Of a stretch of 64,000 nucleotides of DNA, positions 1,205-63,908 are shown one piece after another. Within the stretch, counting starts at the first letter, position 1; every line of letters starts with the position of its first letter. The notes beneath the pieces are model-generated. The model made no database searches, was not told the DNA's origin, and was given only the letters and a program-made list of their open reading frames with translations. Source of the DNA: Luteibacter sp. UNCMF331Sha3.1. GTDB lineage: Bacteria > Pseudomonadota > Gammaproteobacteria > Xanthomonadales > Rhodanobacteraceae. The translations under genes were made by a program, and so were the position numbers. Where the stretch lies: assembly GCF_900109915.1 (NCBI RefSeq), contig NZ_FOBU01000002.1, positions 1,071,170-1,135,169 on the forward strand, written 5' to 3'.

Positions 1205-1274
1205 TGTGGGAGCGCGCTCGCGCGCGAAGGGTGCTCGCGGCAAGCACCCATTCGCGCGCGAGCGCGCTCCCACA
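1205..1274. repeat. Palindromic intergenic repeat, type B/B
   Basis: The outer 24-bp arms are perfect (TGTGGGAGCGCG... and its complement), followed by GGGTGCT / AGCACCC with a one-base bulge and a short loop. It is a member of a unit of about 69 bp found at many gaps in this window; here both arms carry the CGCGCTCGCGCG inner stem. It sits between the divergent hypothetical gene and selO. Confidence 0.85.
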
Positions 1275-1347
1275 CGAGATCCAGACGAGACCTTGTACCC
1301 GAGAGGAATGCCCGGATATTCCTCATAACGTCCCGACCCCATCCCCG

Positions 1348-2901
1348 ATGACCGACCTTCGCTTCGACAACACCTTCGTGCGCGAGTTGCCGGCCGACCT
1401 CGACACGTCCAACGTGCAGCGTCAGGTGCTCGGCGCCGCTTATTCGTTCGTCGACCCGACCCCGGTGTCCGCGCCGCGGACGATCGCGGTCGCGACGGAC
1501 GTGGCCGCCATGCTCGGCATCGATCCGGACGCCGGCGACTTCGCCGAGGTCTTCGCGGGCAACGCGCGCCGCCCGGGCATGACCGGCTACGCCATGGCGT
1601 ACGGCGGCCATCAGTTCGGGCACTGGGCCGGACAGCTCGGCGACGGGCGGGCGATCTCTCTCGGGGAGGTGCTCACGGCGGCCGATGGCCGCCAGGAGCT
1701 GCAGCTGAAGGGCGCCGGCCGCACGCCGTATTCCCGCGGCGCGGACGGACGCGCCGTGCTGCGGTCGTCCATTCGCGAGTTCCTCTGCAGCGAAGCCATG
1801 CATCATCTCGGCGTGCCGACGACGCGCGCGCTGTCGCTCGTGGCGACCGGCGACGCCGTGGTCCGCGACGTGATGTACGACGGCCACCCGGCGCCGGAGC
1901 CCGGCGCGATCGTCTGCCGCGTGGCGCCTTCGTTCCTGCGCTTCGGCTCGTACGAACTGCCTTCGGCACGCGGCGACGTCGCGCTGCTGCGGCGGCTGGT
2001 CGATTTCACCCTGGAACGGCACTACCCGGCATACGCCGGTCTGCCAGGCGAGGAAGGCTACGCCGCGTTCTTCGCCGACGTCTGCGAGCGCACGGCGCGC
2101 CTGATGGCGCACTGGATGCGCGTGGGCTTCGTGCATGGTGTGATGAACACGGACAACATGTCGATCCTGGGCCTCACCATCGATTACGGCCCCTATGGCT
2201 GGATCGACGACTTCGACCCCGACTGGACGCCCAACACCACGGATCGCGCGCACCGGCGCTATCGCTTCGGCCAGCAGCCGCACGTCGGCTACTGGAACCT
2301 CCAGCGACTGGCGCAGGCGCTTTCGCCGCTGTTCGGCGGCGTCGAGGCGCTGCACGCGGGGCTGGCGCGTTACGTCGAGGTCTTCGAGGCATCGGATGCC
2401 GCGTTTTCGGCCGCGAAGCTCGGTCTCGCCCAGCCCGACGCGGGCGACGAGGCACTGATCGCCGACCTGCGCGGACTGCTGCTGGCCGGCGGCATGGACA
2501 TGACGATCTTCTATCGCGATCTTGCGACGGTCGATCTCGACGCGCCGCGCGCGGCGAGCCTCGACGAGGCCTTCTACGACGAGACCGGCCGCGCCGCGGT
2601 GGGCGAGGCGCTGCAGGCGTGGCTGCTTCGTTATGCGGCGCGCGTTCGCGCGGACGGCTCACCCGACGCCGGGCGAATCGCCCTGATGCACGCGGCCAAT
2701 CCCCGCTACGTGCTGCGCAACTACCTCGCGCAGCAGGCCATCGACCGTGCGGAGCAGGGCGACGAAGCGGGTGTCCACGAACTTCTCGACGTGCTGCGGC
2801 ATCCGTACGACGAGCAGCCAGGCAAGGCGCGCCTGGCGGCCCGCCGCCCCGACTGGGCACGCGAGCGCGTCGGCTGCTCGATGCTGTCGTGTAGCAGCTG
2901 A
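1348..2901 (+). CDS. selO: Protein adenylyltransferase SelO (YdiU/UPF0061)
   Basis: The 517-residue protein is a pseudokinase-fold enzyme that transfers AMP from ATP to Ser/Thr/Tyr of target proteins (protein AMPylation), implicated in redox stress responses. Recognisable family blocks are [49 protein letters not shown], and [21 protein letters not shown] with the metal- and nucleotide-binding Asn/Asp residues. The C-terminus [10 protein letters not shown] keeps the two-cysteine tail that corresponds to the redox-active end of SelO. ATG 1348 ([14 protein letters not shown]) matches the usual family N-terminus; an in-frame extension upstream runs through the palindromic repeat and is unlikely to be real. 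It appears monocistronic. Confidence 0.95.
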
Positions 2902-2926
2902 CTTCGCGAAAACCGATCGCACCGCC

Positions 2927-2955
2927 GTGGGCCCCGGCGTACGCCGGGGCGACGG
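2927..2955. repeat. Inverted single copy of the GCCCCGGCG palindrome unit
   Basis: Positions 2931-2950 form a perfect 20-bp palindrome, GCCCCGGCGTACGCCGGGGC. With its flanks (GTGGG before, GACGG after) it is the reverse complement of the core of the 63-bp tandem units at 3048-3236. It lies 30 bp after the selO stop and may act as a transcript-end hairpin. Confidence 0.75.
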
Positions 2956-3047
2956 TGAGGCATGGTGCGGCACCTTCGCTACCCGCAGCCCGCTACCGTC
3001 CACCCTCGCCGCACGACCCGTCAGCCCGTCGCCGCGCAAGCCACACG

Positions 3048-3236
3048 CACGACCCGTCGCCCCGGCGCACGCCGGGGCCCACGTCCCCGGTCCTCGCGCA
3101 GGCGACACCGCACGACCCGTCGCCCCGGCGCACGCCGGGGCCCACGTCCCCGGTCCTCGTGCAGGCCACACCGCATAACACGTCGCCCCGGCGCACGCCG
3201 GGGTCCACGTTCCCGGTCCTCGTGCAGGCGACGGCA
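3048..3236. repeat. Three tandem 63-bp repeats with palindromic cores
   Basis: Units start at 3048, 3111 and 3174. Each reads as CACGACCCGTCGCC, then the palindrome CCCCGGCGCACGCCGGGG, then CCACGT.CCCGGTCCTCG.GCAGG. Units one and two are nearly identical; the third has a few changes. A degenerate partial unit precedes them (about 3012-3047). The gap between selO and rsmC (2902-3284, 383 bp) holds no gene; it is almost filled by this array and the inverted copy at 2927. The period is a multiple of three, so frames stay open through it, which explains spurious N-terminal extensions of rsmC. Confidence 0.85.
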
Positions 3237-3284
3237 CGTGCCCGTAGACTATCCGGCTACCCTTTCCCGACGAGGTCGCCCGCG

Positions 3285-4343
3285 TTGTCCGCCGGTTCTG
3301 CTTCCGATGATGCGCTCGAGGCCTTGTTCGTGCCGTTCGCCGCGGGCGATCTGTCATGGCCCAACGACGGCAGCGTGCTGATGCTGCGCGCCCGCGACGG
3401 CTTCGCGCTGCGCGAATCGCGGCGGCCGGGCTGGACGGTGCAGCAGTCCTTCCTGCCGGCCGCGGACGCGCTCGCGCGCTCCGGTTTCGAGCCCGTGGTG
3501 GATCTGCCCGCGGGGCGTTTCCGCGTCGTGACGGTGTTGCCGACGCGGCAGCGCGAGGAATCGCGCGCGTTGTTCGCGCAGGCCATGGCACGTGTCGCCG
3601 CTGACGGGATCGTGGTGGCGAGCGTGCCGAACGCGGAGGGTGCGAAGACGGCCGAGGGCGATCTCGCCTTGCTGGCCGGTGGCGTCGCCACGCTCTCGAA
3701 GCACAAATGCCGCGTCTTCTGGACACGCCCCGGCGCGACGCCGGCCCCGGCCCTGATGGACGCATGGCTCGCGCTCGACGCGCCGCTGCCCATCGACGAT
3801 GGCCGCTTCGTCAGCCGCCGTGGATTGTTCGCGTGGGATCGTGTCGACCGCGCTTCCGCGCTGCTGACCGGCGTCATGCCGGCCGATCTCGCCGGCCGGG
3901 CCGCCGATCTCGGTGCCGGCTTCGGCTACCTTGCCTGCACGCTGATCGATCGCTGCCCCGGTATCGCTGCCGTCGACCTCTACGAGGCCGAGGCCCGCGC
4001 GCTCGAGCCGGCACGCATCAACGTGGCGGCCGCCGTGTCGCGGGCAGGCCGCGACATCGCGACCACCGTTCGCTGGCAGGATGTGACGCGCGGGATCGAC
4101 GGCGGCTACGACGTCATCGTGTCCAATCCACCGTTCCATCAGGGGCGCGCCGACGACCCGTCGCTCGGCCGCGCGTTCATCGCCGCCGCCGCGAAAGGGC
4201 TGAACGCCCGCGGCCGTTTCTGGATGGTCGCCAATCGCCATCTCGCGTACGAGGCGACGCTCGACGCGTGCTTCGCCACCGTGCGCACCGTGATCGAAAA
4301 AGACGGCTTCAAGGTCGTCGAAGCAAAGGATCCCCGTCGATGA
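3285..4343 (+). CDS. rsmC: 16S rRNA guanine-N2 methyltransferase RsmC-like
   Basis: The 352-residue class I SAM methyltransferase is expected to methylate G1207 of 16S rRNA in the 30S subunit. The C-terminal half has the SAM-binding ADLGAGFGYLA motif and the catalytic SNPPFHQG (Asn at about residue 281) typical of m2G methyltransferases. The divergent N-terminal half is the degenerate duplicated domain seen in RsmC, and the length fits the E. coli enzyme (about 343 residues). I chose the TTG at 3285 because GAGGT sits 8 bp upstream and because longer frames would translate the 63-bp repeats. Its stop overlaps the next gene's ATG (ATGA), so the two are translationally coupled. Confidence 0.85.
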   Translation: MSAGSASDDALEALFVPFAAGDLSWPNDGSVLMLRARDGFALRESRRPGWTVQQSFLPAADALARSGFEPVVDLPAGRFRVVTVLPTRQREESRALFAQAMARVAADGIVVASVPNAEGAKTAEGDLALLAGGVATLSKHKCRVFWTRPGATPAPALMDAWLALDAPLPIDDGRFVSRRGLFAWDRVDRASALLTGVMPADLAGRAADLGAGFGYLACTLIDRCPGIAAVDLYEAEARALEPARINVAAAVSRAGRDIATTVRWQDVTRGIDGGYDVIVSNPPFHQGRADDPSLGRAFIAAAAKGLNARGRFWMVANRHLAYEATLDACFATVRTVIEKDGFKVVEAKDPRR

Positions 4344-5047: not shown

Positions 5048-5159
5048 TCTCGCCTTCGGTGGTGGGTGGGAGCCGGGCGACATGCCCGTTTCGTTATGGA
5101 CGCTCCATGCACGTCCGTTGCAGTATCCGGGGAGTCCGTTCACCCATGGAGTGTGCAAG

Positions 5160-5690: not shown

Positions 5691-5697
5691 GGAACGC

Positions 5698-6321: not shown

Positions 6322-6323
6322 TC

Positions 6324-6351
6324 GGTGGGCGCCGGCAGACGGGCTCCCACC
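6324..6351. terminator. Degenerate palindromic repeat between convergent genes
   Basis: GGTGGG and CCCACC bracket an imperfect GCCGGC-containing stem. It is a short, decayed member of the window's GTGGGAGCC repeat family, placed 2 bp after the alkB-like stop and 15 bp before the stop of the convergent GGDEF gene. It may serve as a bidirectional terminator hairpin, but there is no T tract. Confidence 0.45.
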
Positions 6352-6366
6352 ACGTCCGGCCAGGCG

Positions 6367-7425: not shown

Positions 7426-7566
7426 CGACGCGGCGCCCTCGCGATGGACGCCTCGCAATCTGTGCAACGGATTCGCACCAACCACCTCCCCCGAGTGGGG
7501 CGCGTACTCCGCGTCCCTGTGTGCATGCTCATGGCTCGCCCTGCCTACTGCTTCCCCTGAACCTTG

Positions 7567-7593
7567 ATAGCGGCAGATCAGTTCGTAACTTTA
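7567..7593 (-). promoter_or_regulatory. Candidate sigma-28 (FliA) promoter
   Basis: On the minus strand the sequence reads TAAAGTTA, 11 bases, GCCGCTAT. The flagellar sigma-28 consensus is TAAAGTTT-N11-GCCGATAA; 7 of 8 and 6 of 8 positions match with exact spacing. It points at the GAF-like/GGDEF gene that starts at 7425, leaving a leader of about 135 nt. This rests on motif match only. Confidence 0.5.
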
Positions 7594-17064: not shown

Positions 17065-17090
17065 GTGGGAGCCAGCAGGCTGGCTCCCAC
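17065..17090. terminator. Perfect 12-bp-arm hairpin between convergent genes
   Basis: GTGGGAGCCAGC, a 2-bp spacer AG, then GCTGGCTCCCAC. This is the outer stem of a type C palindromic repeat without its inner part. It lies 6 bp after the propeller-GGDEF stop and 1 bp before the yajQ stop, well placed as a bidirectional terminator, although without a T tract. Confidence 0.65.
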
Positions 17091-21042: not shown

Positions 21043-21064
21043 CTGGCGGCCTGGCTACCTTCGG

Positions 21065-21153
21065 GCGGGAGCCAGCCTGCTGGCGATGGTTGCTCGCGAT
21101 GAAGCCACCGGCCGCCGGGTGGGAGCACCCTTCGCGCGCGAGCGCGCTCCCAC
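21065..21153. repeat. Palindromic repeat with unlike arms, type C/B, with insertion
   Basis: The left part is GCGGGAGCCAGCCTGCTGGCGA (type C arm) followed by TGGTTGCTCGCGA. The right part is AGCACCCTTCGCGCGCG and AGCGCGCTCCCAC (type B arm). About 20 extra bases separate them. The two arms cannot pair in their inner parts. It sits 22 bp after the amidinotransferase-fold stop, before the convergent yaiI. Confidence 0.7.
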
Positions 21154-21159
21154 GGAAAG

Positions 21160-34885: not shown

Positions 34886-34948
34886 CGACGGCTCGGCTTG
34901 CACCATCGCGTTGGGTTTCGCATGGCCGCGAAGTGCCCTCGTCGCACC

Positions 34949-35746
34949 GGCTCGGCTTCGCCATCGCGTTCGGTTTGCGCTGTCGCGAAGAGCCGTCGGC
35001 CGCCGCCCTCGGCGCTCCGGGCTTCACCGTCGCTTGGGAAAGGATGCCGCTGCGCGGCCATGTTCGATGGCTGACGCCCCTGCGCGCCCGCGCGGCGAGC
35101 GGGGGTTTTCGACTCGGCTCCTGCCTCGACGAAAACGGCTGGCCATCCGGGCCGGCCCCCTGCGGGCCTGATCCGCCCGCCGCGCTCGGTTCCGCAAGTC
35201 GCGCCAAGGGCGGCGGCCGACGGCTCTGCCGACCGGCTAGGCAAGCTGCTTGTGTAGGAGCCGCTATGGCGGCGAGCTCTTGGCTTTATGTGGGAGCGGC
35301 CTTGGCCGCGATGGGTGCTTGCGGCAAGCACCCATCGCGGCCAAGGCCGCTCCCACAGACAGGCGGCCGAAGGCATCGCTCGCAACGGCAAGCACCCATC
35401 GCCAGCAGGCTGGCTCCCACCCGACGGTAGCCGTCTTGTCGCCACCCGGCACCTCAACGGTCGGCAGAGCCGTCGGCCCTCACCCTCGGCGCGACTTGTG
35501 GAGGCGAGGGATTCGCGCGGATAAGGCCCGAAGGGGGCCGGCCTGGATGGCCGGCCGTTTTCGTTGAGGCACGGAGGCCGAATCGAAAACCCCCGCGCGA
35601 AGCCCGTGCGCGCCGGGGCGCAGCCATCAGACAAAGCCGCGCAGCGGCACCCTTACCCAAGCGACGCCGGAGCTCGGAGCGGCGAGGGTGAGGGCCGACG
35701 GCTCTTCGCGGCAACGCGCAAGCCAACGCGACGGCGAAGCCGAGCC
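34949..35746. repeat. Fold-back island: ~290-bp imperfect inverted repeat
   Basis: The left arm 34949-35235 and right arm 35458-35746 are inverted copies of each other over their whole length (roughly four in five bases agree by eye, with small gaps). Shared blocks include GGCTCGGCTTCGCC at the outer ends, GCGAAGAGCCGTCGGCC, GGTGCCGCTGCGCGGC-like, GGGGGTTTTCGA, GGCCATCC.GGCCGGCCCCC and CGGCTCTGCCGACCG at the inner ends. The 222-bp centre holds a perfect 69-bp palindrome and loose half-units. Extra copies of the 54-bp outer module occur at about 34891-34942 (decayed) and 35766-35818. The whole gap 34886-35884 has no convincing gene; frames across it mirror the repeat. I see no transposase or target duplication. 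Confidence 0.8.
35289..35357. repeat. Perfect palindromic repeat, type A/A
   Basis: The 32-bp arms are perfectly complementary around loop GCGGC; the outer end is TGTGGGAGC, the inner stem GGCCTTGGCC, and the loop-side TGGGTGCTT. It is the best-preserved copy of the family, in the centre of the fold-back island. An orphan left half (about 35254-35279, GTAGGAGCC...) and an orphan type C right half (about 35385-35421) flank it. Confidence 0.9.
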
Positions 35747-35827
35747 AGAGCGCCGAGTGCGACCGCCGACGGCTCTTCGCGGCCACCCGAAACCCAACGC
35801 AATGGCGAAGCCGAGCCCCTCGGACGC

Positions 35828-44413: not shown

Positions 44414-44589
44414 CGCGGGAGCGGCCTTGGCCGCGAAGGGGTGCTTGCCGCGAGCACCCATCGCGCGCGAGCGCGCTCCCACAGACAAGCCCGCCGTATC
44501 GGCCATGGTGACGAGTGCTTGTGGGAGCGGCCTTGGCCGCGAATGGGGGCTTGCCGCGAGCACCCATCGCGCGCTAGCGCGCTCCCACA
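44414..44589. repeat. Two palindromic repeats with unlike arms, type A/B
   Basis: Copies are at 44414-44483 and 44520-44589. Each has a left arm with GGCCTTGGCC (type A) and a right arm with CGCGCG.GAGCGCGCTCCCACA (type B), so the inner arms do not match. Both loops differ from the usual one (TTGCCGCGAGCACCC). The second copy has a T in place of C in the right arm (GCGCGCTAGCGC). They fill the gap between the convergent gloA2 and DUF2461 genes. Confidence 0.85.
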
Positions 44590-46745: not shown

Positions 46746-46814
46746 GGTGGGAGCCAGCCTGCTGGCGATGGGTGCTCGCCGTGGGAAGCCATCGCCAGCA
46801 GGCTGGCTCCCGCC
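46746..46814. repeat. Palindromic repeat, type C/C
   Basis: 69 bp: GGTGGGAGCCAGCC, TGCTGGCGATGG, loop, CCATCGCCAGCA, GGCTGGCTCCCGCC. The arms pair almost perfectly (one G/C change at the right outer end). It lies in the divergent sbcB/orn gap, so it cannot be a terminator for either gene. Confidence 0.88.
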
Positions 46815-50896: not shown

Positions 50897-51019
50897 GTGA
50901 AACCGATCAGCCCGCCTTCGCGAGCCAAGCGCTCGTCACCCCGAAAAACGACCAGCACGCGGTCGCCGGCGCAGCGCGCCCGTCGCCAGCGCACCATGAA
51001 GGCCCGCGGACGCGGCTGA
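50897..51019 (+). CDS. Possible small basic peptide (40 aa)
   Basis: An open frame of 40 codons starts with GTG 50897, which has CGGAG 6 bp upstream. The product is extremely basic: about 15 Arg/Lys, with Ser, Pro and Thr, and essentially no acidic residues (begins MKPISPPSRAKRSSPRK, ends MKARGRG). It would bind nucleic acids if made. It lies in the 208-bp gap between the oxygenase and the convergent EamA gene. A GC-rich gap can give such a frame by chance. Confidence 0.4.
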   Translation: MKPISPPSRAKRSSPRKTTSTRSPAQRARRQRTMKARGRG

Positions 51020-51034
51020 GCCGCTTGCGGAAAA

Positions 51035-51931
51035 TCAGGGCGCCACGATGTCGGACGGCGCCGCGCGTTCTCCTCGATGCAGCCAGGGATGCGCGAACAC
51101 CGCGATCAGGATGATCGCCACGCCGACGTAGAACGTCCACCCCAGCTCCCGTTGCTCGCCGAGCAGCGGAATCGCAAGCACGATCGCGTAGACGGGCTCG
51201 AGGTTCGTCACCATCTGCGTCGCGAACGCGGAGAGATGGCGCAGCGCGGACAGCGCCAGCGCGAAGGGGAGCAACGTACACCCATACGCCAGCAAGATCA
51301 GGAGCGCGCCGTCGTGCGCGTCAGGCAGCGGAAAGGCCGGCACGGCGAAGAACGGCGCAAGGGCGGTGAGAAACAGCGTGCCCGTGCCGAGTTCGACGCA
51401 GGTTACCGTGAGCGAATCCGCGCGATCGATCAAACGCTTGTTGAGCGCGCTAAAGAAGGCCACGAAGATCGCCGAGAGCACGCCGATGGCGAGGCCAAGG
51501 CGCATGTCTCCGGGGAGCCCGCCCGCCACGAGGGCCACGCCGGGCACCACGGCCGCGCCGATCATCAGCTCCCGCGGATCGAACCGACGACCGGCCACCC
51601 ACGGTTCGACAATGGCCAGGAACACGGGACACAGCGCGATGCAGGTCGCGGCCACGGAGGCGTTCGCGAGCTTGATCGCGCCGTAGAACGTGAGCCAGTG
51701 CAGTGCGACGATCACGCCGATGCCGGCATAGGACAGCGCCAGCCGCGGCGACATGGCGCGCAGACCGCGCCACACCCGCGGCACGCAGAGCAGCGTCCCC
51801 GACACCAGCAACATGCGCCACCACACTAGCGGCAGGGCGGGCAGGGCGATCAGCTTTCCGAGGATGGCGGTGAAGCCCCAGAGCAGGACGCAGAAGTGGA
51901 TCTGGAGATGAGCACGACGGGCAGGCGACAT
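51035..51931 (-). CDS. EamA/DMT-superfamily transporter
   Basis: The 298-residue inner-membrane protein has ten hydrophobic segments in two EamA repeats (about 10-140 and 155-290); the second ends with MVTNLEPVYAIVLAIPLLGEQ, typical of drug/metabolite transporters such as RhaT/YdcZ-like and amino acid exporters. The substrate is unknown. ATG 51931 (MSPARRAHLQIHFCVLLWG) is chosen because upstream frame runs through palindromic repeats. It is convergent with the small basic frame. Confidence 0.85.
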   Translation of the reverse strand: MSPARRAHLQIHFCVLLWGFTAILGKLIALPALPLVWWRMLLVSGTLLCVPRVWRGLRAMSPRLALSYAGIGVIVALHWLTFYGAIKLANASVAATCIALCPVFLAIVEPWVAGRRFDPRELMIGAAVVPGVALVAGGLPGDMRLGLAIGVLSAIFVAFFSALNKRLIDRADSLTVTCVELGTGTLFLTALAPFFAVPAFPLPDAHDGALLILLAYGCTLLPFALALSALRHLSAFATQMVTNLEPVYAIVLAIPLLGEQRELGWTFYVGVAIILIAVFAHPWLHRGERAAPSDIVAP

Positions 51932-51998
51932 CCGCGAAGCTTGCCCGAAGCCGCACGGCTTTTGTAGGGGCCGCTGACGCGGCTTCCAAAGGCCGATC

Positions 51999-52153
51999 TG
52001 TAGGAGAGCCTCGGCCGCGATGGGTGCTCGCGGCAAGCCCCTTCGCCAGCAGGCTGGCTCCCACCAGGAGCCCACTACAGCAGGTGTGGGAGCGGCCTCG
52101 GCCGCGATAGGCGCTCGCGGCAAGCCCCCATCGCCAGCAGGCTGGCTCCCACC
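51999..52153. repeat. Two palindromic repeats with unlike arms, type A/C
   Basis: Copies lie at 51999-52066 and 52085-52153. Left arms are TGTAGGAGAGCCTCGGCCGC (decayed) and TGTGGGAGCGGCCTCGGCC (type A); both right arms are CGCCAGCAGGCTGGCTCCCACC (type C). A further half-unit (GTAGGGGCCGCTGACGCGGC) precedes at about 51964. They fill the 233-bp gap between the end of the AsmA-family gene and the EamA start. Confidence 0.85.
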
Positions 52154-52164
52154 GGCCGTCCCGC

Positions 52165-54312
52165 TTACCTTGCCGACTTTCCGGCTGGCGGGGCTTTCGG
52201 CGGACTCTGCTTCAGATCGTCCAGCAACGGCTTGCACTGCGTGGCGTCCGCCTTGCCGCTTTCCGGCACGGCCAGTGCGCCCAGCGCCGCCACCGGCGCC
52301 GCGAACACCGCCAGCGCGGCGGCGCCACCGGCGCGCAGGATCAGAGGCCCGGCGTGGACGCCCGGCGCCGGATTCGCGAACGTCCCATGGACGTACAACG
52401 GCGAGCGCAACGAGAACAGACGGAAGCCCTTCGTATGCGGAACGATGTCGAGATTGAGCTTCTCGTCACGGAAGTTCACGTCGCCCGTGACGTTGATCAA
52501 AGCCTTTTCCGTGTCGAACGCGAACAGCCGCGATTCCATCACGCCATCGGTGGCGACGAGATCGGCGGCCATGCAATTGATCTTGACCACGTCGTCGCCG
52601 AACAGCTTCGTCACCGCGTAGCTGCCCACGTTGAGGCCCGCCAACTCCAGCAACGATCCGCTGATCGCGCCATCGTTGATCAGCAGCTTCACCTCGCCAT
52701 TGGAACTGCCCAGCAGCGCCGCGGGTGAATTGCCGACGGCGGTGAGCGACGCGTCGCCGTTCAACTCGCCGAAGCTCGTCTGCATCGGTGCGAAGGTGGG
52801 GAAGAGCTCCTTGAGCTTCAGGTGACGGGCTCCGAGGTTGAAGCCCCCGCGCAGAGGCGTCTTCGAACCGTCGAGCCGGATGTTGCTGCCCACGGTGCCG
52901 CCCGCCACGCCGAACTTGAGCGGGTCGAGGGTAAGCACCGCGTCCTGCATGACCAGATGCGTCGAGACGTTCTCGAACGGCAGCCGTTCGCCATGAACGA
53001 TCTTGACGCCGGTGAACGTGACATCGGCATCCATCGCGTTCCACCGATCGGTCTTGAACGGCTCCACCGGCAGCACCTTGCCGGCCGGCTGCTTCGCGGT
53101 GTCGCCGCGCTTCGCCTTTTCGGCGTCGCTGCCGCCACCGATCAGCGGTGCCAGATCGGCGAAGAGCAGCTGGTTCGATTTCAGCTTGCCGGACAGCTTC
53201 GGCCGCGCGCCGCGCGTGTCGAACACGAGGCTTCCGCCCAGATCGCTGCCACCGACCCGGCCAGTGAAGTTCTCGTACGTGAAGACGCTCGCGCCTTGCT
53301 TGAGGTTGGCCTTGAGATGGCCTTCCGTCGCGAAGGGCGGCGTGTCCGGAAGCGTGATGCCCGTCAGGTCGTAAAGATGCGACATGCTGGTACCCGAGAA
53401 CCACAACCGCACGTCGAGCGCGCCCATGTTGATCGGATCGGTCAGCGTGCCCACGAAGGCGATGTGCGTATCACCGAACCGCGCATCCGCCTGCACCGGG
53501 AATGGGCGACTGGCGTCGCGCAGCGCGAGCACGCCGCCGGTGCGGGCCTTGGCCGACACGGTGGATTTCTTGTACGTGCCCTTGGCATCCCAGGCGAAGT
53601 AATAGAGCTGTTTGTTCTTGGTTTCGTCCTGGCGGTCCTTTTCGTCGGCGTCGCTCTTCGCCATCGTCTTCGCGCTGGCGCCCGTGGTCTTGTTCGCCTG
53701 CGCGCGCGAATCCTTCTCCTGCTGCGCCATGATCTCGTTGAACGGAATGCCCTTGCCGAGCGGCGTCACGTCGATGCCCATGACGATCTGGTTGGTCGCG
53801 TCCGAGAAGTCGATGTGACCCTTGTCGAACGCGATCGCGTTCAGCTCCATCTGCCATTCGGACGGCCCGGTGCTCTCGGGCATCTTGAACGTCCACGTGT
53901 TGTCGCCGTTCTTCACGCGCTCCAGCGCGATCCGCGGCCGGCCCAGCCGAATCTCGGGTACCACGATGCGATGAGCGATGAGCGGGAAGGGCGACAGCCG
54001 GAACTCGACGGACTCCAGCGTGGCGAAACGCTTGTTCTTCGCCCAGTCCGGATTCGCGACGGTGATGTCGAGGGCTCTGAAATGCGGCCAGGGGATGAGT
54101 CCGACCAGACCGCCTTCTCCGGGCTCGCGCGACCAATGCGCGGACAGGTCGCCATTGATGGCGAACGGGCGACCGATGGCTTCGGACACCTTCTCGTTGA
54201 TGGTGGGTTTCAGCCGGTTCCAGTCGAAGAAGGCGATGAAGAGAATGATCGCCACGATCAGAACGACGAGGATGCCCAACACCCACGCCAGAATTTTCCT
54301 GCCACGCCGCAT
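52165..54312 (-). CDS. AsmA-family envelope protein
   Basis: The 715-residue protein has one N-terminal membrane anchor (LAWVLGILVVLIVAIILFIAFF) and a long periplasmic region of beta-rich repeats, as in AsmA, YhjG and other bridge-like lipid-transport proteins that link inner and outer membranes. Family blocks include DWNRLKPTINEKVSEAIGR, the C-terminal GNSPAALLGSSNGEVKLLI and LNLDIVPHTKGFRLFSLRSP. A Lys/Asp/Gln-rich segment (about 210-245) is an insertion. ATG 54312 (MRRGRKILAW) is chosen. Role: outer-membrane lipid homeostasis, by family only. Confidence 0.85.
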   Translation of the reverse strand: MRRGRKILAWVLGILVVLIVAIILFIAFFDWNRLKPTINEKVSEAIGRPFAINGDLSAHWSREPGEGGLVGLIPWPHFRALDITVANPDWAKNKRFATLESVEFRLSPFPLIAHRIVVPEIRLGRPRIALERVKNGDNTWTFKMPESTGPSEWQMELNAIAFDKGHIDFSDATNQIVMGIDVTPLGKGIPFNEIMAQQEKDSRAQANKTTGASAKTMAKSDADEKDRQDETKNKQLYYFAWDAKGTYKKSTVSAKARTGGVLALRDASRPFPVQADARFGDTHIAFVGTLTDPINMGALDVRLWFSGTSMSHLYDLTGITLPDTPPFATEGHLKANLKQGASVFTYENFTGRVGGSDLGGSLVFDTRGARPKLSGKLKSNQLLFADLAPLIGGGSDAEKAKRGDTAKQPAGKVLPVEPFKTDRWNAMDADVTFTGVKIVHGERLPFENVSTHLVMQDAVLTLDPLKFGVAGGTVGSNIRLDGSKTPLRGGFNLGARHLKLKELFPTFAPMQTSFGELNGDASLTAVGNSPAALLGSSNGEVKLLINDGAISGSLLELAGLNVGSYAVTKLFGDDVVKINCMAADLVATDGVMESRLFAFDTEKALINVTGDVNFRDEKLNLDIVPHTKGFRLFSLRSPLYVHGTFANPAPGVHAGPLILRAGGAAALAVFAAPVAALGALAVPESGKADATQCKPLLDDLKQSPPKAPPAGKSAR

Positions 54313-54497
54313 CGTGCCGCTCCCATCCCATGAACGGACATAGGGGTATCGCGGCGGCCGCAAACGTTATGTGTTCATGGCAGGGATCGATTAAGCGACG
54401 TCGATACGCCGTGACGATGACGAGCCCCGGAGATTCAGCCAGCTCGCGATGGCTTCCGGACAGAGGGCAGCGCTAAAGCGGCTTTCGCAGAGCATCC

Positions 54498-54632
54498 TGT
54501 GGGAGCGGCCTTGGCCGCGATGGGTGCTCGCGACAAGCCCATCGCCAGCAGGCTGGCTCCCACCGAAATCCACACGGCTCGCTCTTCTGTGGGAGCGGCC
54601 TTGGCCGCGAACGGGTGCTCGCGACAAGCCCC
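54498..54632. repeat. Palindromic repeats: one type A/C unit and one orphan left half
   Basis: 54498-54564 has a type A left arm (TGTGGGAGCGGCCTTGGCCG) and a type C right arm (GCCAGCAGGCTGGCTCCCACC). From 54598 a second left type A arm with the loop-side GGGTGCTCGCGACAAGCCCC continues, but its right arm is missing. The gap 54313-54647 (335 bp) between the yqjH-like gene end and the AsmA start holds nothing else I can name. Confidence 0.8.
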
Positions 54633-54647
54633 ACCCAGGCAACCGCA

Positions 54648-55400
54648 TCAGTCGGCCTGCCAGTAGCCCGTAGCCTTGACCCATTCCTTGTCGACGCCGC
54701 GTTGTTCCACCAGCAAGGAGCGCAACGCACGGGCACGCTTCGATTCCGTGGCCACCCACCAGAATGTATCGCCCTGCGGTATCGGCAACGCCGCAAGCGC
54801 CTCGTCCATCCGTGGCGACGCTCCGGCGACGAACCAGGTGACGTCGCGCGCGAGTGCCTGTCGCTCTTCCGCCGACGACACTTCGATCAGCACCGTGACG
54901 TTCCGGTCCGCCGGCATGTGTTCGAGCCACCGGCCGATCGCGGGTAGCGCGGTCGCGTCGCCCACCATCACGTAGTGATCGAAATCGTCCGCGACGACCA
55001 TCGATCCGCGCGGACCGCCGACATGCAGGACGTCCCCCACGCTAGCGGTCTCCGCCCAGCTGGACGCGGGCCCGTCGCCGTGGATCACGAAATCGATGTC
55101 GAGCTCGCCGGCCGCTGCGTCGTACCTGCGAGGGGTGTAGTCGCGCGACGGCGAGTGCTCGCCGTCGGCGTAGACAGGACCGTTCTCGCTGAAGACGGGC
55201 AGGTTCATCGTGCCGGCCGGGGTCGGGAAGAACAGCTTCACGTGGTCGTCCGGCGCGGCGGATACGAATCCGGCGAGGTCGTCGCCGCGAAGCGTCACCC
55301 GCACCATGTGCGGGGTGACGTGCGCCACGCGCGCCACTTCGAGGCGGCGCATCTTCAGCGGGTGGCGGACGCGTCGGGCCTGATGACGCTCGTCGGTCAT
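54648..55400 (-). CDS. yqjH: Siderophore-interacting FAD protein, YqjH/ViuB-like ferric reductase
   Basis: The 250-residue SIP-family flavoprotein is expected to reduce ferric siderophores with NADPH and release Fe2+ in the cytoplasm. It has VARVAHVTPHMVRVTLRGDDL, the FAD-binding SRDYTPRRYD, DIDFVIHGDGPASSWAE, the VGDATALPAIGRWLEHMP segment and the C-terminal FWWVATESKRARALRSLL. Its ATG overlaps the upstream regulator gene by 4 bp (ATGA), so it is co-translated with it. In E. coli the equivalent yqjH and yqjI are divergent; here they form one operon. Confidence 0.85.
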   Translation of the reverse strand: MTDERHQARRVRHPLKMRRLEVARVAHVTPHMVRVTLRGDDLAGFVSAAPDDHVKLFFPTPAGTMNLPVFSENGPVYADGEHSPSRDYTPRRYDAAAGELDIDFVIHGDGPASSWAETASVGDVLHVGGPRGSMVVADDFDHYVMVGDATALPAIGRWLEHMPADRNVTVLIEVSSAEERQALARDVTWFVAGASPRMDEALAALPIPQGDTFWWVATESKRARALRSLLVEQRGVDKEWVKATGYWQAD

Positions 55401-55987
55401 TGGCGCTCCCCCACGGCTTTCGCGGCCGCGTCGATCAGTCGGGCGACGCGCGCGAGTTCCGCTTCGTCCCAGCTCTTGTGATGGTTCATCAGCTGATGCT
55501 TCAGCCGATGCATGGCCTCGCGCACTTCGTTGGGCACGGTCATGCGGCGCATATGGCGGGACATCACCTGCAGCCGCTCCGTGAGCGCGTCGAGGCTGTC
55601 GCGATTCTCGGCGAGGAAGGCGCGGCCCGTGTCGGTGATGGCGTAGAGCTTCTTACCGCCCGTCTCGGCCTCGACGCGGGCATAGCCGAGCTCTTCGAGC
55701 ATCGTCAGGGTCGGATAGATGGCGCCGGGGCTCGGGCTGTACTGGCCGTCGAACATCTCTTCGATGGTGCGGATCAGTTCGTAACCGTGGCGTGGCTGCT
55801 CCTCGATCAGCGCCAGCAGCAGGAGCCGCAGGTCGCCCGTCCCGAACATCCGGCCGCCGAAGCGGCCACCGCCACGCCCGCCACGCATGCCGTCGCGGTC
55901 GTCGAATCCGAACGGGCCGCCGCCGAAGCGGCCGCCGCCGCGGCCGACGGCATGCATGTGCTCGTGGAGCCGATGGAAAAAATGCAT
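55397..55987 (-). CDS. yqjI: PadR-family regulator, YqjI-like
   Basis: The 196-residue repressor has a PadR winged-helix domain (about 50-130: DLRLLLLALIEEQPRHGYEL, FDGQYSPSPGAIYPTLTMLEELG, GGKKLYAITDTG) and a C-terminal dimerising helix region. Like E. coli YqjI, a Ni/Fe-responsive repressor of yqjH, it has an N-terminal extension. Here that extension holds five His in the first 12 residues and a Gly/Arg/Phe-rich stretch, a plausible metal-binding tail. A perfect palindrome sits 10 bp upstream of the start, suggesting autoregulation of the yqjI-yqjH operon by metal status. Confidence 0.85.
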   Translation of the reverse strand: MHFFHRLHEHMHAVGRGGGRFGGGPFGFDDRDGMRGGRGGGRFGGRMFGTGDLRLLLLALIEEQPRHGYELIRTIEEMFDGQYSPSPGAIYPTLTMLEELGYARVEAETGGKKLYAITDTGRAFLAENRDSLDALTERLQVMSRHMRRMTVPNEVREAMHRLKHQLMNHHKSWDEAELARVARLIDAAAKAVGERQ

Positions 55988-55997
55988 GGATGCTCTC

Positions 55998-56032
55998 CGA
56001 TATATCGTACGTAGTGCACGTACGATATATCG
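55998..56032 (-). promoter_or_regulatory. Perfect 15+15 palindromic operator of the yqjI-yqjH operon
   Basis: CGATATATCGTACGT, spacer AGTGC, ACGTACGATATATCG. The arms match perfectly, and each itself contains the 10-bp palindrome CGATATATCG. It is AT-rich within a GC-rich genome and lies 10 bp upstream of the PadR-type start codon, so bound repressor would block the promoter or ribosome site. Confidence 0.85.
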
Positions 56033-56060
56033 TGAGTAACGGTCGTGCAAGTGTGTCCTC

Positions 56061-56129
56061 GGTGGGAGCCAGCCCGCTGGCGAAGGGTGCTCGCGGCAAG
56101 CACCCTTCGCCAGCAGGCTGGCTCCCACC
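56061..56129. repeat. Palindromic repeat, type C/C
   Basis: 69 bp with 31-bp arms that differ at one base: GGTGGGAGCCAGCC, CGCTGGCGAAGGGTGCT, loop, AGCACCCTTCGCCAGCA, GGCTGGCTCCCACC. It lies between the operator region of the yqjI operon and the stop of the thioredoxin-like gene. Confidence 0.9.
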
Positions 56130-56138
56130 AAGAGAGCA

Positions 56139-57110
56139 TCACCCGAAGGTGAACGTGAACGCGTGGAAATTCGCCTTCGGAATCCGGATCGTCAGCACGT
56201 GATCCTTGTAGTCGGTCGCGGTGTACAGCGTGTACAGCTGCGATGCCTGGATCGTCACCGGCGGCTGCGGCTTGCCGTCGACCAGCACCTCGACCGTCAC
56301 CGGATCGTTCGCGCTGGCGACCATGTGCACCTTCTTCGCCTTGAAATGCAGGCGGATCTCGCCGCTGGCACCGGTCAGCGTGGCGTTCTGACGGCCGATC
56401 TCCCAGCGACCGACCAGCGCGAACTGGTTCAGATCGAGCCGCGAGGGCGCGGTGAAATCGCGCGTGCCGGTGCGGCCACCTTCGGGGCTGGCAAGGTTCT
56501 GGCCGCGGTCGCCACCGAAGTACATCTCCGGCGAGCCGATCTGGTTGAAGTCCGGCGCATCCTTGTCCTCGGCGATGGCCTTGGCGTCGAGCCGCGGCAG
56601 GCCCAGCAGGGTGCGGATCGCGTTCTCCATCTCGGCGTAGTTGCCTTCACCGAAGTGATGGGCCACGACGTTGCCGCGCTGGTCGACCAGGTACTCGGCC
56701 GGCCAGTACTGGTTGTCCCACGCGTCCCACGTTTCCAGATCGTTGTCCTGCGCCACCGGGTAGTGGATGTTGTACTTCCTGATCGCGTCGCGGACGTTGC
56801 CCTCCTGTTTTTCGAAGGGGAATTCCGGGGAGTGCACGCCGACCACCACCAGGCCCTTGTCCTTGTACTCGTCGTACCAGCGGGTGACGTGGGGCAGGGT
56901 GCGCAGGCAGTTGATGCACGAGTAGGCCCAGAAATCGATCAGCACGACCTTGCCGCGCAGCTGCTTCATCGTCAGCGGCTTCGAGTTCTGCCAGACGGCG
57001 ATGCCGGCGAATTCCGGGGCGGTCTGGGCCGCGATGGCGGGGCGCGCCAGCCCGAGCGCCATGGCGGCGAGGGCGACGACGAACAGGGCGTGGCGGAACG
57101 GGTGGCGCAT
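56139..57110 (-). CDS. Exported thioredoxin-like protein (DipZ C-terminal type)
   Basis: The 323-residue precursor has a signal peptide (HALFVVALAAMALGLARPAIA) and a TlpA/DipZ-like thioredoxin domain (about 30-170) with active site WAYSCINCLRTLPH (CxxC). A C-terminal beta-rich domain (about 220-323, HFKAKKVHMVASANDPVTVE) like the carbohydrate-binding-like end of DipZ follows. DipZ proteins normally also have a CcdA membrane part; it is absent here, so this is the stand-alone periplasmic module. It probably acts in periplasmic disulfide reduction. ATG 57110 gives the best signal peptide. Confidence 0.85.
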   Translation of the reverse strand: MRHPFRHALFVVALAAMALGLARPAIAAQTAPEFAGIAVWQNSKPLTMKQLRGKVVLIDFWAYSCINCLRTLPHVTRWYDEYKDKGLVVVGVHSPEFPFEKQEGNVRDAIRKYNIHYPVAQDNDLETWDAWDNQYWPAEYLVDQRGNVVAHHFGEGNYAEMENAIRTLLGLPRLDAKAIAEDKDAPDFNQIGSPEMYFGGDRGQNLASPEGGRTGTRDFTAPSRLDLNQFALVGRWEIGRQNATLTGASGEIRLHFKAKKVHMVASANDPVTVEVLVDGKPQPPVTIQASQLYTLYTATDYKDHVLTIRIPKANFHAFTFTFG

Positions 57111-58747: not shown

Positions 58748-58785
58748 GTTCACGAGGCGCGGCCGCCGTATCGCGCTTCGCGCGA

Positions 58786-58853
58786 TCGCCAGCAGGCTGG
58801 CTCCCACCAGAGCATGAGCCTTACCGCTCTGGTGGGAGCCAGCCCGCTGGCGA
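58786..58853. terminator. Long hairpin between convergent fumA and ackA (reversed repeat halves)
   Basis: TCGCCAGCAGGC...CCACCAGAGC (28 bp), loop of 12, GCTCTGGTGG...CGCTGGCGA (28 bp), with one mismatch. It is made of a type C right half followed by a left half, i.e. the family unit turned inside out, and the stem includes 6 bp not present in other copies. It ends 2 bp before the ackA stop and is well placed as a bidirectional terminator. Confidence 0.75.
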
Positions 58854-58855
58854 AC

Positions 58856-59887: not shown

Positions 59888-62250
59888 GTGGCGTCCTCGG
59901 CCTTCCATTGCCAGTCGCGCACATCGGGCAGATCCTGGCCGTGCTCGCTGACGTACAGCTTGTGTCGCTCGATGTCGGACCAGTAGCGCTGCGACGCCTT
60001 CGCCCGTTCGCCTTCCAGTCGCGGGATGCGGTTGATCGCGTCGAGCGCGAGCTGGAAGCGATCCATGTTGTTCAGCACCATCATGTCGAGCGCCGTCGTG
60101 GTCGTACCTTCTTCCTTGTAGCCGCGCACGTGGAAGTTATCGTGGTTATGCCGCCGGTAGGTCAGCTTGTGCACGATGCCCGGATAGCCGTGGAACGCGA
60201 AGATCACCGGGCGATCCTTCGTGAACAGGTCGTCGAACTGGTCGTCGTCCATGCCGTGGGGATGCTCGTCCGGCGTTTCCAGCGACATCAGGTCCACCAC
60301 GTTGACCACGCGGATGCGGATGTCCGGCACGTACTCGCGCAGCAGCATCACCGCGGCCAGCACCTCCACCGTCGGCGCATCGCCGGCGCATGCCATCACC
60401 ACGTCGGGGTCGTCGCCCCCGCGACCGGCCCATTCCCAGATGCCGGCGCCGGCCGTGCAATGACGCACGGCGCTTTCCATGTCGAGCCACTGCCAGTCGG
60501 GTTGCTTGCCGGCGACGATCACGTTGACGTAGTGGCGACTGCGCAGGCAATGGTCCGCGACCGACAGCAGGCAGTTCGCGTCGGGCGGCAGGTAGATGCG
60601 CACGATTTCCGATTTCTTGTTCGCCACGTGGTCGATGAAGCCCGGATCCTGGTGCGAGAAACCGTTGTGGTCCTGGTGCCACACGTGCGAACTGAGCAGG
60701 TAGTTCAGCGACGCGATCGGCGGACGCCACGACATCTTGCGCGTCACCTTCAGCCACTTCGCATGCTGGTTGAACATCGAGTCGATGATGTGGATGAAGG
60801 CCTCGTAACACGAGAAGAAGCCGTGGCGACCGGTGAGCAGGTAGCCTTCGAGCCAGCCCTGGCACTGATGCTCGCTGAGTACCTCCATCACACGTCCCGC
60901 GGGCGAGAGGTTCTCGTCCACCGCTTCGGTATCGGCCAGCCACGTCTTGCCGCTCGCCTCGTAGACGGCCTCCAGGCGGTTCGACGCCGTCTCGTCGGGG
61001 CCGAACAGGCGGAAGGTTTCCATGTTCTGGCGCATCACTTCGCGAAGGAAGCGCCCGAGCACACGCGTCGCCTCCGCCTTGTGGTCGCCGGGTACCTTCA
61101 CGTCTTCGGCGAACGTGCGGAAGTGCGGCATGTGCAGCGGTTTCAGCAACAGGCCCCCGTTCGCATGCGGATTCATGCCCATGCGCCGGCGGCCGGTCGG
61201 CGCCAGCGAGGCGAACTCCTCGCGGAAGCGACCATGCTCGTCGAAGAGCTCTTCCGGTTCGTAGCTCTTCATCCAGTCTTCGAGGATCGCGACGTGCTCG
61301 TCGTTCTCGAACTTCGCGATGGGAACCTGATGCGCGCGCCAGGTGCCTTCGACGGGCTTGCCGTCCACGACCTTCGGGCCGGTCCAGCCCTTGGGGCTGC
61401 GAAACACGATCATCGGCCAGCGCGGGCGCGTCGCGGCGTCGGCGTCGCCACCGCGTGCCTTGTCCTGGATGCGGCGGATCTCGTCGAGGCAGCGGTCGAG
61501 CGCCGCGGCGAACGCCTGGTGCATCGGATCGAATTCGTGGCCTTCGACGAAGTGCGGCTCGTAGCCGTAGCCGCGCATGAGGTCGCGCAATTCGTCCGGT
61601 TCGATGCGCGCGAGCACGGTGGGGTTGGCGATCTTGAAGCCATTGAGGTGCAGGATCGGCAGCACCGCGCCATCGCGCGCGGGGTTGAGGAATTTGTTCG
61701 AGTGCCAGCTCGTCGCCAGCGCGCCGGTTTCGGCTTCGCCGTCGCCCACGATGCACGCGACGACCAGTTCCGGGTTGTCGAACGCGGCACCGAAGGCATG
61801 CGACAGCGAATAACCGAGTTCGCCGCCTTCGTGGATCGAGCCCGGCGTTTCCGGCGCCACATGGCTGGGGATGCCGTAAGGCCACGAGAATTGCCGGAAC
61901 AGCTCGCGCATGCCGGCGGCGCTGCGATCGATGTGCGGATACACCTCGGTGTAGGAGCCTTCGAGGTAGGTATGCGCCACGAGACCGGGCCCGCCGTGGC
62001 CGGGGCCGATCACGTAGATCATGTCGAGGTCGCGCTCGACGATCGCACGGTTCAGGTGCGTGTAGATGAAATTGAGGCCCGTGGTCGTGCCCCAGTGCCC
62101 GAGGAGACGATGCTTGATGTGATCCTTGCTCAGCGGCTCGTCGAGTAACGGATTGTCGCGCAGATAGATCTGGCCGACGGAAAGGTAGTTCGCGGCACGC
62201 CAGTACGCGTGCATGCGACGCAGCAGATCGGGTGCGAGCGTCTCGGTCAT
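59884..62250 (-). CDS. xpk: Xylulose-5-phosphate/fructose-6-phosphate phosphoketolase
   Basis: The 788-residue thiamine diphosphate enzyme cleaves xylulose-5-P (and/or fructose-6-P) to acetyl phosphate plus glyceraldehyde-3-P (or erythrose-4-P). It has the N-terminal [49 protein letters not shown], the ThDP-binding [15 protein letters not shown], and later [13 protein letters not shown] with the catalytic Glu-region neighbours. Together with ackA it forms a bypass from sugar phosphates to acetate with one ATP. No clear start problem; ATG 62250. Confidence 0.95.
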
Positions 62251-62336
62251 CGGGGTTTCCAGGCGACGGGGTCGCCCACCAGCCTATGGCCGCGCGGATT
62301 CGGCTGGCGTGAAAGAACGCCCCGCCGATTGGCCGC

Positions 62337-63176
62337 TCATTCCGCCGAGCCGATCTCGCGCGTATTGCGTTCCATCACCTTGATGGCGTCGTCGGCCTGG
62401 CGATGCGCCTCGCGCCGCGCGGCTTCGGAGCGCATGTCCTGCGCGCGCGCACGCTCGGCCAGTTCGCGCGAGAGCGACTCGGACGGGTCCACTGCGGGAC
62501 GCCGCGGCGGCGGCAAGGGCGCGGCCGCCGGGGAAGCGGCGGGAGCGGCCACCGGGGCCGGCGCCGGCGCGGCCTCGACGGTCACGGGCGGGGCAGGCGG
62601 CTTGCGTGGCGCCATCGCCCGCCACACGAACACGCCGAGCAGGCACACCACCAGTGCGCCCACGATAGCGGGAACCAGCCAGGGCCTGTCGCGGCGTGCG
62701 GCGGCGCGGGGCACCGTCGTGCGTCGCACCGTGTCGGCGGCCAGTGGTGCCTGCGGCACGCGACCGCTCGGGTCGGGCAGCTTCAGCATCACCCGCAGCG
62801 TGTCGCCGTCCACCAGCTGAAGGCGTGGCTGGCGGCGTTGCGCCGTGCGCGCCTCGGGTGTGAACGTGCCGCGCGTCAGGAGTACGCCGCCCGACACGCC
62901 CTCGTTGAGCATCGTCGCAAGCAGTTCGTTGACCTCGTCGACGCCGACCTGCTTCGCATCCCACTGCCGGCATTGCACGATGGTGACCTCGTCGCCACGG
63001 CGCATCCGCAGGTCGAGACTGGTACCGAGGGCTTTCAGGGAGCGCGGTCGCGAATCGTATTCCACGCGCCAGCCCTGCTCGCGGTAATACTCGGCAAGCA
63101 GGTGCTCGAACGTATGCCAGCTCATGCGCGCGAGAGCGTCCGTAGCGGCGGGCGATGCGTGGCGCTCAAGATCCAT
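62337..63176 (-). CDS. Membrane-anchored Mrr-like nuclease-fold protein
   Basis: The 279-residue protein has an N-terminal Mrr/restriction-endonuclease-like domain (about 18-130): HTFEHLLAEYYREQGWRVEY, LDLRMRRGDEVTIVQCRQW, and GVLLTRGTFTPEARTAQ. It is followed by a linker, one membrane helix (PAIVGALVVCLLGVFVW, about 170-187), a Pro/Ala-rich stretch and a C-terminal charged helix (about 230-275, rich in Arg/Glu/Ala). In Mrr enzymes the core reads QxK; here it is QCR, so catalysis may be weakened. No methylase or partner is nearby. Its role is unknown. ATG 63176 is chosen. Confidence 0.7.
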   Translation of the reverse strand: MDLERHASPAATDALARMSWHTFEHLLAEYYREQGWRVEYDSRPRSLKALGTSLDLRMRRGDEVTIVQCRQWDAKQVGVDEVNELLATMLNEGVSGGVLLTRGTFTPEARTAQRRQPRLQLVDGDTLRVMLKLPDPSGRVPQAPLAADTVRRTTVPRAAARRDRPWLVPAIVGALVVCLLGVFVWRAMAPRKPPAPPVTVEAAPAPAPVAAPAASPAAAPLPPPRRPAVDPSESLSRELAERARAQDMRSEAARREAHRQADDAIKVMERNTREIGSAE

Positions 63177-63341
63177 GGGTCGGCGGACGTAGAGACGGGA
63201 ACGAACCGGCGATGATAACCGGATGTTGACGCAGTGCGCAGAACCGGCAAACGACGAGGATTCACGTACGTGAAAATCTTGCCGGTTATGTGCCTCGCCG
63301 GTACATTGGCAGGTTGTGTTGGGAATTTCAGGGGAAATCGG

Positions 63342-63869
63342 GTGTTGAAGCAAGTGCTCGCCGCGTCCGCGGTACTGGTGCTGTCCGCGTGCGGCGGAAA
63401 GACGATGATCGAAAGCGACATGAGCCACCTCGTGTCGGCCAGCCCGGCGTCGCCGTGGCTCACCGTGGAGAATCCTGGCGTCGCGGTGCTGACCGTGACG
63501 GGACTCGAACAGAAGCAGAAAGTGCAGGTGGCGCCGGACGTCGCCACGGCCGTGGAAGCGCGCCTGCGCACCATGCTGCAGCCGAAGTACTTCACCGATC
63601 TGATCGTCAACTGCCGTGGTCTGCAGGTGGCGGTGGGAGCGAAGACCGAGGCCGAACCGCCGTCGCTCGACATCGACATGAGCGTCGGCTGCCGGATCGT
63701 GGCGCGCGGGCTGGTGTCGACCCGATCGTATCGGCTGCACCGGTCGCAGGCGATCGACCCGGCCGCAGCGCACCTCGACACCGCGGTGCCGGCACTGATC
63801 GACGGCGCGTCGACCGAACTGGCCGACCGCATATGGACCGGCGTACTGGCGACCGGCGCGAAGCGCTGA
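63342..63869 (+). CDS. Hypothetical lipoprotein
   Basis: The 175-residue precursor is of unknown function. GTG 63342 has AGGGG 7 bp upstream and yields a lipoprotein signal VLAASAVLVLSAC with lipobox Cys at about residue 16. The mature part has VAPDVATAVEARLRTMLQPKY and an IVNCRGLQVAVG..LDIDMSVGC stretch that looks like a secretin- or Curli-like alpha/beta module, but I do not recognise the family. Alternative: GTG 63270, also with a ribosome site, gives a second lipoprotein-like signal (VMCLAGTLAGC) fused ahead of the first. It is divergent from the Mrr-like gene. Confidence 0.65.
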   Translation: MLKQVLAASAVLVLSACGGKTMIESDMSHLVSASPASPWLTVENPGVAVLTVTGLEQKQKVQVAPDVATAVEARLRTMLQPKYFTDLIVNCRGLQVAVGAKTEAEPPSLDIDMSVGCRIVARGLVSTRSYRLHRSQAIDPAAAHLDTAVPALIDGASTELADRIWTGVLATGAKR

Positions 63870-63880
63870 TCGTTCGATCG

Positions 63881-63908
63881 GGTGGGAGCCGGCAGGCTGG
63901 CTTCCACC
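63881..63908. repeat. Short type C palindromic repeat between convergent genes
   Basis: GGTGGGAGCCGGC, AG, GCTGGCTTCCACC: outer stem only, with two changes. It lies 11 bp after the lipoprotein stop and 13 bp before the stop of the convergent gene at the window end. Confidence 0.6.

Follow-up and report, generated by a model that had tools for sequence, protein, structure and literature searches.

Mixed REPIN doublets in a Luteibacter genome occur below chance frequency and lie mostly in local tandem arrays

A family of palindromic repeats recurs through a 64,000-nucleotide stretch of the genome of the soil bacterium Luteibacter sp. UNCMF331Sha3.1 (the window; C7:1071170-1135169, where C7 is the contig carrying it, NZ_FOBU01000002.1, in a 4.12-Mb assembly that is 99.97% complete). 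These elements are REPINs (REP doublets forming hairpins), that is, non-autonomous doublets of repetitive extragenic palindromic (REP) half-units with GTAG or GTGG tags. They belong to a system of known kind with a REP-associated tyrosine transposase (RAYT), which is new to Luteibacter as far as searched. Most doublets in this genome are homotypic and solitary. Hybrid doublets, whose two arms carry different stems, are likewise of a known kind; here they occur below chance frequency and mostly within local tandem arrays. The association of mixed arms with tandem arrays is statistically well supported in this genome (G000) and does not hold genus-wide.

The half-units take the form GT[A/G]GGAG, then a 5+1-bp stem, a 2-nt loop and CGA, with a palindromic stem-loop following the GT[A/G]G tag. 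They share one frame (tag and bulge) in which the 5-bp stem varies: CGGCC in type A, CGCGC in B, CCAGC in C and CCGCT in D. Types A, B and C had been recognized in the preliminary description and are retained, although the list was incomplete, as a half of the fourth type, D, lies at 35253. The tag is mostly GTGG in A, B and C and mostly GTAG in D; the outer base separates C from A and B; and a spacer core, GGGTGCT...AGCACCC, is common to A, B and C. Two halves lie inverted, head-to-head, at a fixed distance across a hairpin spacer, and doublets of types A, B and C measure 65-69 bp, except for an 89-bp pair at 21065. In the window, GTGGGAGC occurs 27 times where 3.07 copies are expected, a count reached by 0 of 100 shuffles, and 24-mer models of types A, B and C gave 24 matches there at ≤3 mismatches, while three first-order Markov nulls gave none at that threshold (2, 0 and 3 hits, all at 6 mismatches). 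Copy number within the genome is high, with 653 half-unit matches at ≤2 mismatches against 3 for a reversed-pattern control.

Pairing of the arms was surveyed over 1.26 Mb of the genome (C7:1-800000, C10:800001-1200000 and the window), where 104 canonical doublets gave 91 loci, counted as one doublet per locus, with the arms shuffled 5,000 times; the C7 stretches hold three runs of N, and a few clusters were incompletely read. The loci comprise 53 CC, 11 AC, 10 AA, 10 BB, 4 DD and 3 AB. An excess of A/B, A/C and C/B pairings, which the preliminary description had raised, is not found, and enrichment of hybrids is rejected: mixed loci are depleted against random pairing, 14 being observed against 48.9 expected. 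AC loci number 11 against 22.0 expected and AB loci 3 against 4.3; B/C loci are absent where 14.9 are expected, as are pairings of D with any other type (7.7 expected). Exact doublets across the whole genome number 63 for CC, 23 for AA, 15 for AC, 4 for AB and 0 for BC, with BB left out of this count.

It had also been argued that hybrids could not have arisen by point decay, and this stands. Over 23 positions, A and B differ at 5, A and C at 8, and B and C at 7, and the arms of hybrids keep the outer base of their own type: in A arms this base is T in 21 of 24 cases among hybrids and 16 of 20 among homotypic doublets, and in C arms it is G in 19 of 20 and 106 of 108, respectively. These outer-base and stem differences exclude point decay and indicate that complete half-units were joined, with the junction within the spacer, where it cannot be placed more finely because the spacer core is common to the types.

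Hybrids are distinguished from matched doublets by where they sit, which in this genome is mainly in head-to-tail arrays. With clusters defined by gaps of ≤160 bp, and tandem meaning the same type in the same orientation at least twice, tandem halves were found at 13 of 16 mixed loci and 4 of 78 matched loci in this genome (Fisher P = 3.8e-10); when at least two full doublets are required, the fractions are 7/16 and 1/78 (P = 8.1e-6). The 16 mixed loci include the 21065 pair, rejected as a hybrid below, as a solitary locus, and three neighbouring arrays at C7:39-42 kb have a similar linker; with that pair left out and those arrays merged, tandem organization is seen in 11/13 mixed and 4/78 matched loci (P = 2e-9). 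The window prompted the finding and the pattern first emerged from the C7 stretches, whereas C10 is a fresh stretch, in which 2/2 mixed and 3/27 matched loci are tandem (P = 0.025); C10 and the window together, without 21065, give 5/5 and 3/31 (P = 1.5e-4). The Luteibacter relatives compared included G004, G009, G012, G015, G021 and G022. G012, which has other stems and other spacers and whose mixed halves differ at three stem positions, shows tandem organization in 3/3 mixed and 1/10 matched loci (P = 0.014); a 56-kb piece of a second G012 contig holds no mixed locus, and 0/2 of its matched loci are tandem. The 180 kb of G015 hold too few types to enter this comparison. Arrays with at least two doublets are mixed in 7 of 8 cases in the genome itself, the exception being a D array adjoining its RAYT gene, in 2/2 cases in selected stretches of G009 and in the single case in G012.

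In the window, the A/B hybrids at 44414..44483 and 44520..44589 form a tandem pair, as do the A/C hybrids at 51999..52065, with a degraded A arm, and 52085..52153; a further A/C hybrid at 54498..54564 belongs to a three-half array (A>, <C, linker, A>; arrows give orientation) closed by a lone A half at 54588..54611, all of these on the plus strand. All five are genuine mixed doublets, as the preliminary description had claimed. At least 12 of the 15 exact A/C doublets of the genome lie in tandem clusters, one lies outside, and two sequences were left out. Linkers are mostly distinct between arrays and recur inside an array, and the mean similarity of A/C doublets is 0.945 for pairs from one array (12 pairs) against 0.87 for pairs from different loci (178 pairs). 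An array unit may also carry bystander DNA, such as the D half at C7:91858. We read the hybrid arrays as probable local tandem duplications between direct REP halves. At C7:430803, 39102 and 96102, and at window position 44415, two REP types alternate in orientation in tandem, as in class 2 bacterial interspersed mosaic elements (BIME-2).

Matched and mixed doublets also differ in their predicted folding as single-stranded DNA. The median energy is -40.35 kcal/mol for matched A, B and C doublets (n=74) and -20.5 for mixed ones (n=24; P = 2.6e-12). Full complementarity over the outer eight spacer pairs occurs in 33 of the 74 matched doublets and in 2 of the 24 mixed ones, and matched doublets form one long hairpin, of about 30 bp in the best copies, which hybrids do not. 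The A/A doublet at window position 35290 folds into one unbroken hairpin (-48.3), while 17 of 200 shuffles fold at least as well as the mixed doublet at 52086 (z -1.4), and the mixed doublets at positions 54499 and 44521 fold weakly (-21.1 and -25.5). Perfect palindromes are nearly absent from the tandem arrays of this genome. Because the stem is palindromic, two inverted halves of the same type are also direct repeats (a 6-bp GCCAGC in C/C arms), and deletion between the GCCAGC repeats leads to the short forms at 17065..17090, a 26-bp palindrome, and 63881..63908, a degenerate copy, with GTGGGAGCCAGC-AG-GCTGGCTCCCAC as the product. These two short forms of the preliminary description are thus collapsed C/C doublets; a third, at 6324, is only a degenerate match with five mismatches. 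Across the genome, a collapse pattern that allows mixed collapse matched 51 times in forward and 52 times in reverse orientation, and the collapse is homotypic among the matches listed.

The resemblance to RAYT-mobilized REP elements noted in the preliminary description gains substance from a single RAYT gene elsewhere in the genome, outside the window. It is a 169-aa open reading frame at C7:25240-25749, the only Y1_Tnp match in the genome (E ≤ 0.001), which scores 142.5 bits against the NCBIfam REP-associated tyrosine transposase model (REP_Tyr_transpos; cut-off 80) and carries an HWH motif; its closest named homologue is from Luteibacter sp. SG786 (73% identity). Its neighbour is presumably a dihydrolipoamide-dehydrogenase-like (lpd-like) gene. 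Scanning of RAYT flanks with 6-bp stems showed type D alone at this gene, with three D doublets after it, and no flanking copies of A, B or C. Flanks of orthologous RAYTs vary by species, with C in G009, CCGCT (D) in SG786, and CCGAC, CCGAT, CGCGC and others elsewhere; one orthologous RAYT beside an lpd-like gene carries a mixed doublet array. These varying REP types at orthologous Luteibacter RAYTs are a case of the orthoswitch of REP classes at orthologous RAYTs described by Nunvar et al. 2013 (PMC3686654). No description of it for Luteibacter was seen in the literature found.

As a whole, these observations are best explained, and in our view probably, by rare joining of unlike halves, copying of the joined unit and loss of homotypic arrays. 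REPIN doublets are thought to be copied by an HUH single-strand transposase, the RAYT. Only rarely would template switching or recombination join unlike half-units, and this would happen in the common spacer core of 21-23 nt. The joined product would then be copied whole, here mainly through tandem duplication between direct REP halves, and in sister species the mixed product would also have spread by dispersal. Homotypic arrays would be lost through the instability of long perfect palindromes and through collapse between palindromic stems acting as direct repeats, while mixed arrays would survive; with such loss, mixed doublets and arrays would coincide in this genome.

Several observations weigh against this explanation. 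The weaker pairing of unlike arms is expected partly by construction, whereas the loss of spacer complementarity in hybrids is not. Homotypic arrays do exist: three looser ones, C>C><C, A><A<A and C><C<C, occur on C10, D><D is repeated three times adjoining the RAYT, and homotypic doublets lie in tandem adjoining the RAYT of L. anthropi. The exact A/A doublets lie partly within copies of another repeat, a long-inverted-repeat element; at least 10 of the 23 do, so the A/A loci are not all independent, and the 78 matched loci of the tandem test include three copies of this element. With only D at the flanks of the RAYT, its action on A, B and C may be supposed but is not indicated by those flanks. 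In G009, mixed doublets are mostly solitary, and tandem organization was found in 3/19 mixed and 2/7 matched loci (P = 0.59) across 20 stretches picked by REP hits; an unselected 400 kb of the same genome gave 1/1 mixed and 0/6 matched. Most of the listed mixed doublets of G004 are dispersed. The link between mixing and tandem organization is therefore not general, and mixed arms implying tandem arrays as a rule is rejected by G009 and G004. The reverse relation holds more widely, as seen in the proportions given above for arrays with at least two doublets, most of which are mixed in this genome, G009 and G012.

These two relatives bear on the possibility that mixed doublets are themselves mobile REPINs, copied as units by a RAYT, with all hybrids here descending from a few mixed ancestors. 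We consider this a serious possibility, though less probable than the explanation above. We take G004 to be L. jiangsuensis CGMCC 1.10133, as it has the same RAYT array letters and contig position. A pattern admitting matched and mixed CCGCT/CCGGC doublets gave 225 forward matches in G004 and 177 in G022. Outside the RAYT array, 36 of the 46 G004 doublets listed are mixed, and in 35 of these CCGGC lies on the CCCGCGG side of the spacer, the remaining one having another spacer. The other 10 of the 46 carry CCGCT on both sides with the same polarized spacer, and CCGGC on both sides is found in 0 of the 46. Mixed doublets spaced by about 150 bp come after the RAYT of G004, three according to the flank scan or four according to the doublet pattern, and a mixed doublet can therefore accompany a RAYT. 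E/C doublets (E = CCACC) likewise form a dispersed family in G009, where most loci share a similar asymmetric spacer of 39 nt. In the genome itself, however, mixed doublets are few, the exact A/C copies being mostly clustered in tandem, and their spacers differ by locus. Independently of this, the CCGCT/CCGCT doublets of G004 with the polarized spacer of the mixed element may reflect either a stem change in one direction or a matched form that is older.

An alternative along the lines of the preliminary description is that hybrids arose copy by copy, each through a separate swap between REPINs by recombination, hairpin-tip repair or template switching. Whole half-units are indeed joined along with their outer bases, A, B and C have a common spacer core where swapping could happen, and several joining events are needed, since linkers and spacers differ between most hybrid arrays. 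However, hybrids fall well short of the number given by random pairing, and no canonical doublet is B/C; most hybrid copies lie in near-uniform local arrays, whose near-identical doublets must mostly be duplicates; and solitary hybrids, the simple product of one swap, make up only 3 of the 16 mixed loci even with the rejected 21065 pair included. Per-copy exchange is thus unlikely. That mixed REP arrays were kept for a function, as BIME-2 elements, for gyrase binding or at mRNA ends, with mixing itself selected, appears improbable, as the arrays are not conserved: the gap holding the array at 54498 is about 250 bp long here and is empty, at 23 and 33 bp, in G021 and G022. Chance neighbours, with unlike single halves inserted side by side or one arm decayed, fit the 21065 pair and are otherwise very improbable, as true hybrids span 65-68 bp and retain most of the core of the spacer, the constant geometry of A/C and A/B doublets contradicts this reading, and types differ at 5-8 of 23 positions, for C including the outer base.

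Comparable REP systems are known. In Pseudomonas fluorescens SBW25 (Bertels and Rainey 2011, PMC3116915), similar features are described: GTGG-tagged halves, inverted doublets of about 70 bp with a hairpin spacer, a RAYT gene, singlets as remnants and tandem GI-GIII arrays; doublets there are described as seldom mixed and every REP type as clustered at its own RAYT, whereas here A, B and C have no adjoining RAYT and mixed doublets form most arrays. GTAG REP families form homodimers, heterodimers and hybrid dimers (Di Nocera et al. 2013, PMC3733652), with about 10% hybrid dimers in S. maltophilia, and as far as the accessible part of that report goes, the hetero or homo state is related to tandem or solitary organization within one genome only here. 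The BIMEs of E. coli are a known precedent for mixed arms in tandem arrays. A known alternating-REP system shares with Luteibacter the tandem alternation of two REP types and a RAYT gene bounded by two unlike REPs; that system has other REP sequences and spacers, and, unlike it, Luteibacter carries matched and mixed doublets within one genome.

More tentatively, mixed arms might allow REPINs to live in tandem, offering a recurring route from the solitary REPIN to the BIME array, taken independently by several lineages, with one RAYT serving a different stem at either end of its element. If so, unlike halves that cannot pair would escape hairpin cleavage and stem-to-stem collapse. According to Di Nocera et al. 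(PMC3733652), the fact that most REP families preferentially form heterodimers 'has no obvious explanation'. Luteibacter holds both states, with solitary matched doublets and mixed arrays in one genome, and in a sister genome the mixed doublet is the commoner among the doublets listed and also stands beside the RAYT; the palindrome-instability idea and the stem strictness of the RAYT thereby become testable in environmental bacteria.

Comparison of nine window loci with five relatives, and of flanks of the genome's own REPs with fetched relatives, shows insertion and turnover at the same gaps between Luteibacter species. The relatives are other species, with about 72-87% DNA identity over long matches of the queried region; window positions 51000-57000 were matched in 22/22 same-genus relatives searched. 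Eight of the nine loci have a colinear gap between conserved flanks in at least one of the five relatives, and 1205 has none. Several gaps lack REPs in some species and carry REPs of other types in others. The gap at 54498 holds REPs of other types in two further relatives. At 51999, four of five relatives have other REP types, and none was detected in G009; at 58786, all five have REPs, of type C in G009 and of other types in the remaining four. An in-situ change of arms was considered and is not claimed from these gaps, because most are short and chance coincidence is possible. At C7:257903, where this genome has a C/C doublet, G009 has one E half and one C half in comparable positions; the E/C spacer of G009, however, is unrelated. 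The gaps at 51999-52153 and 58785-58854 are REP-filled in most of the compared species, usually with another stem type, and placement sometimes agrees within a few bases, as at 58786.

The remaining repeats of the window, given by coordinates alone where no strand is assigned, include the homotypic doublets of the preliminary description, all of which were borne out: B/B at 1205..1274 (one mismatch per arm; dG -45.1), A/A at 35289..35357 (a perfect hairpin; dG -48.3) and C/C at 46746..46814 and 56061..56129 (dG -39.5 for the latter). Two other copies were reassigned. The supposed C/B hybrid at 21065 is a C half and a B half adjoining head to head at 21064..21154, two remnants ruled out as a canonical doublet by their 89-bp span and broken 45-nt spacer, and the copy reported at 58786 is a tail-to-tail pair of C halves (58785..58854) with the opposite geometry to a REPIN. 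Three lone halves had been overlooked: the A half at 54588, a D half (GTAGGAGCCGCTATGGCGGCGA; 35253..35276, plus strand) and a C half (35398..35421, minus strand).

The last two flank the A/A doublet, which lies at the centre of the repeated long-inverted-repeat element (window 34890-35817), with two inverted arms of about 350 bp that are 81.5% alike. About 15 other longer copies or pieces of this element occur in the genome at 80-93% identity, with related sequence in G015, and a reading of D>A><A<C as a nested composite was dropped, as it is part of this element. Single-orientation tandem arrays of lone C halves occur at C7:108475-108796 and C7:48079-48230 in G000 and from C1:1597053 onward in G009, with periods of 75, 65 and 47 bp, respectively; in the G000 arrays, a small CCCGCGA-AGCGGG-like hairpin follows the halves in place of the usual spacer.

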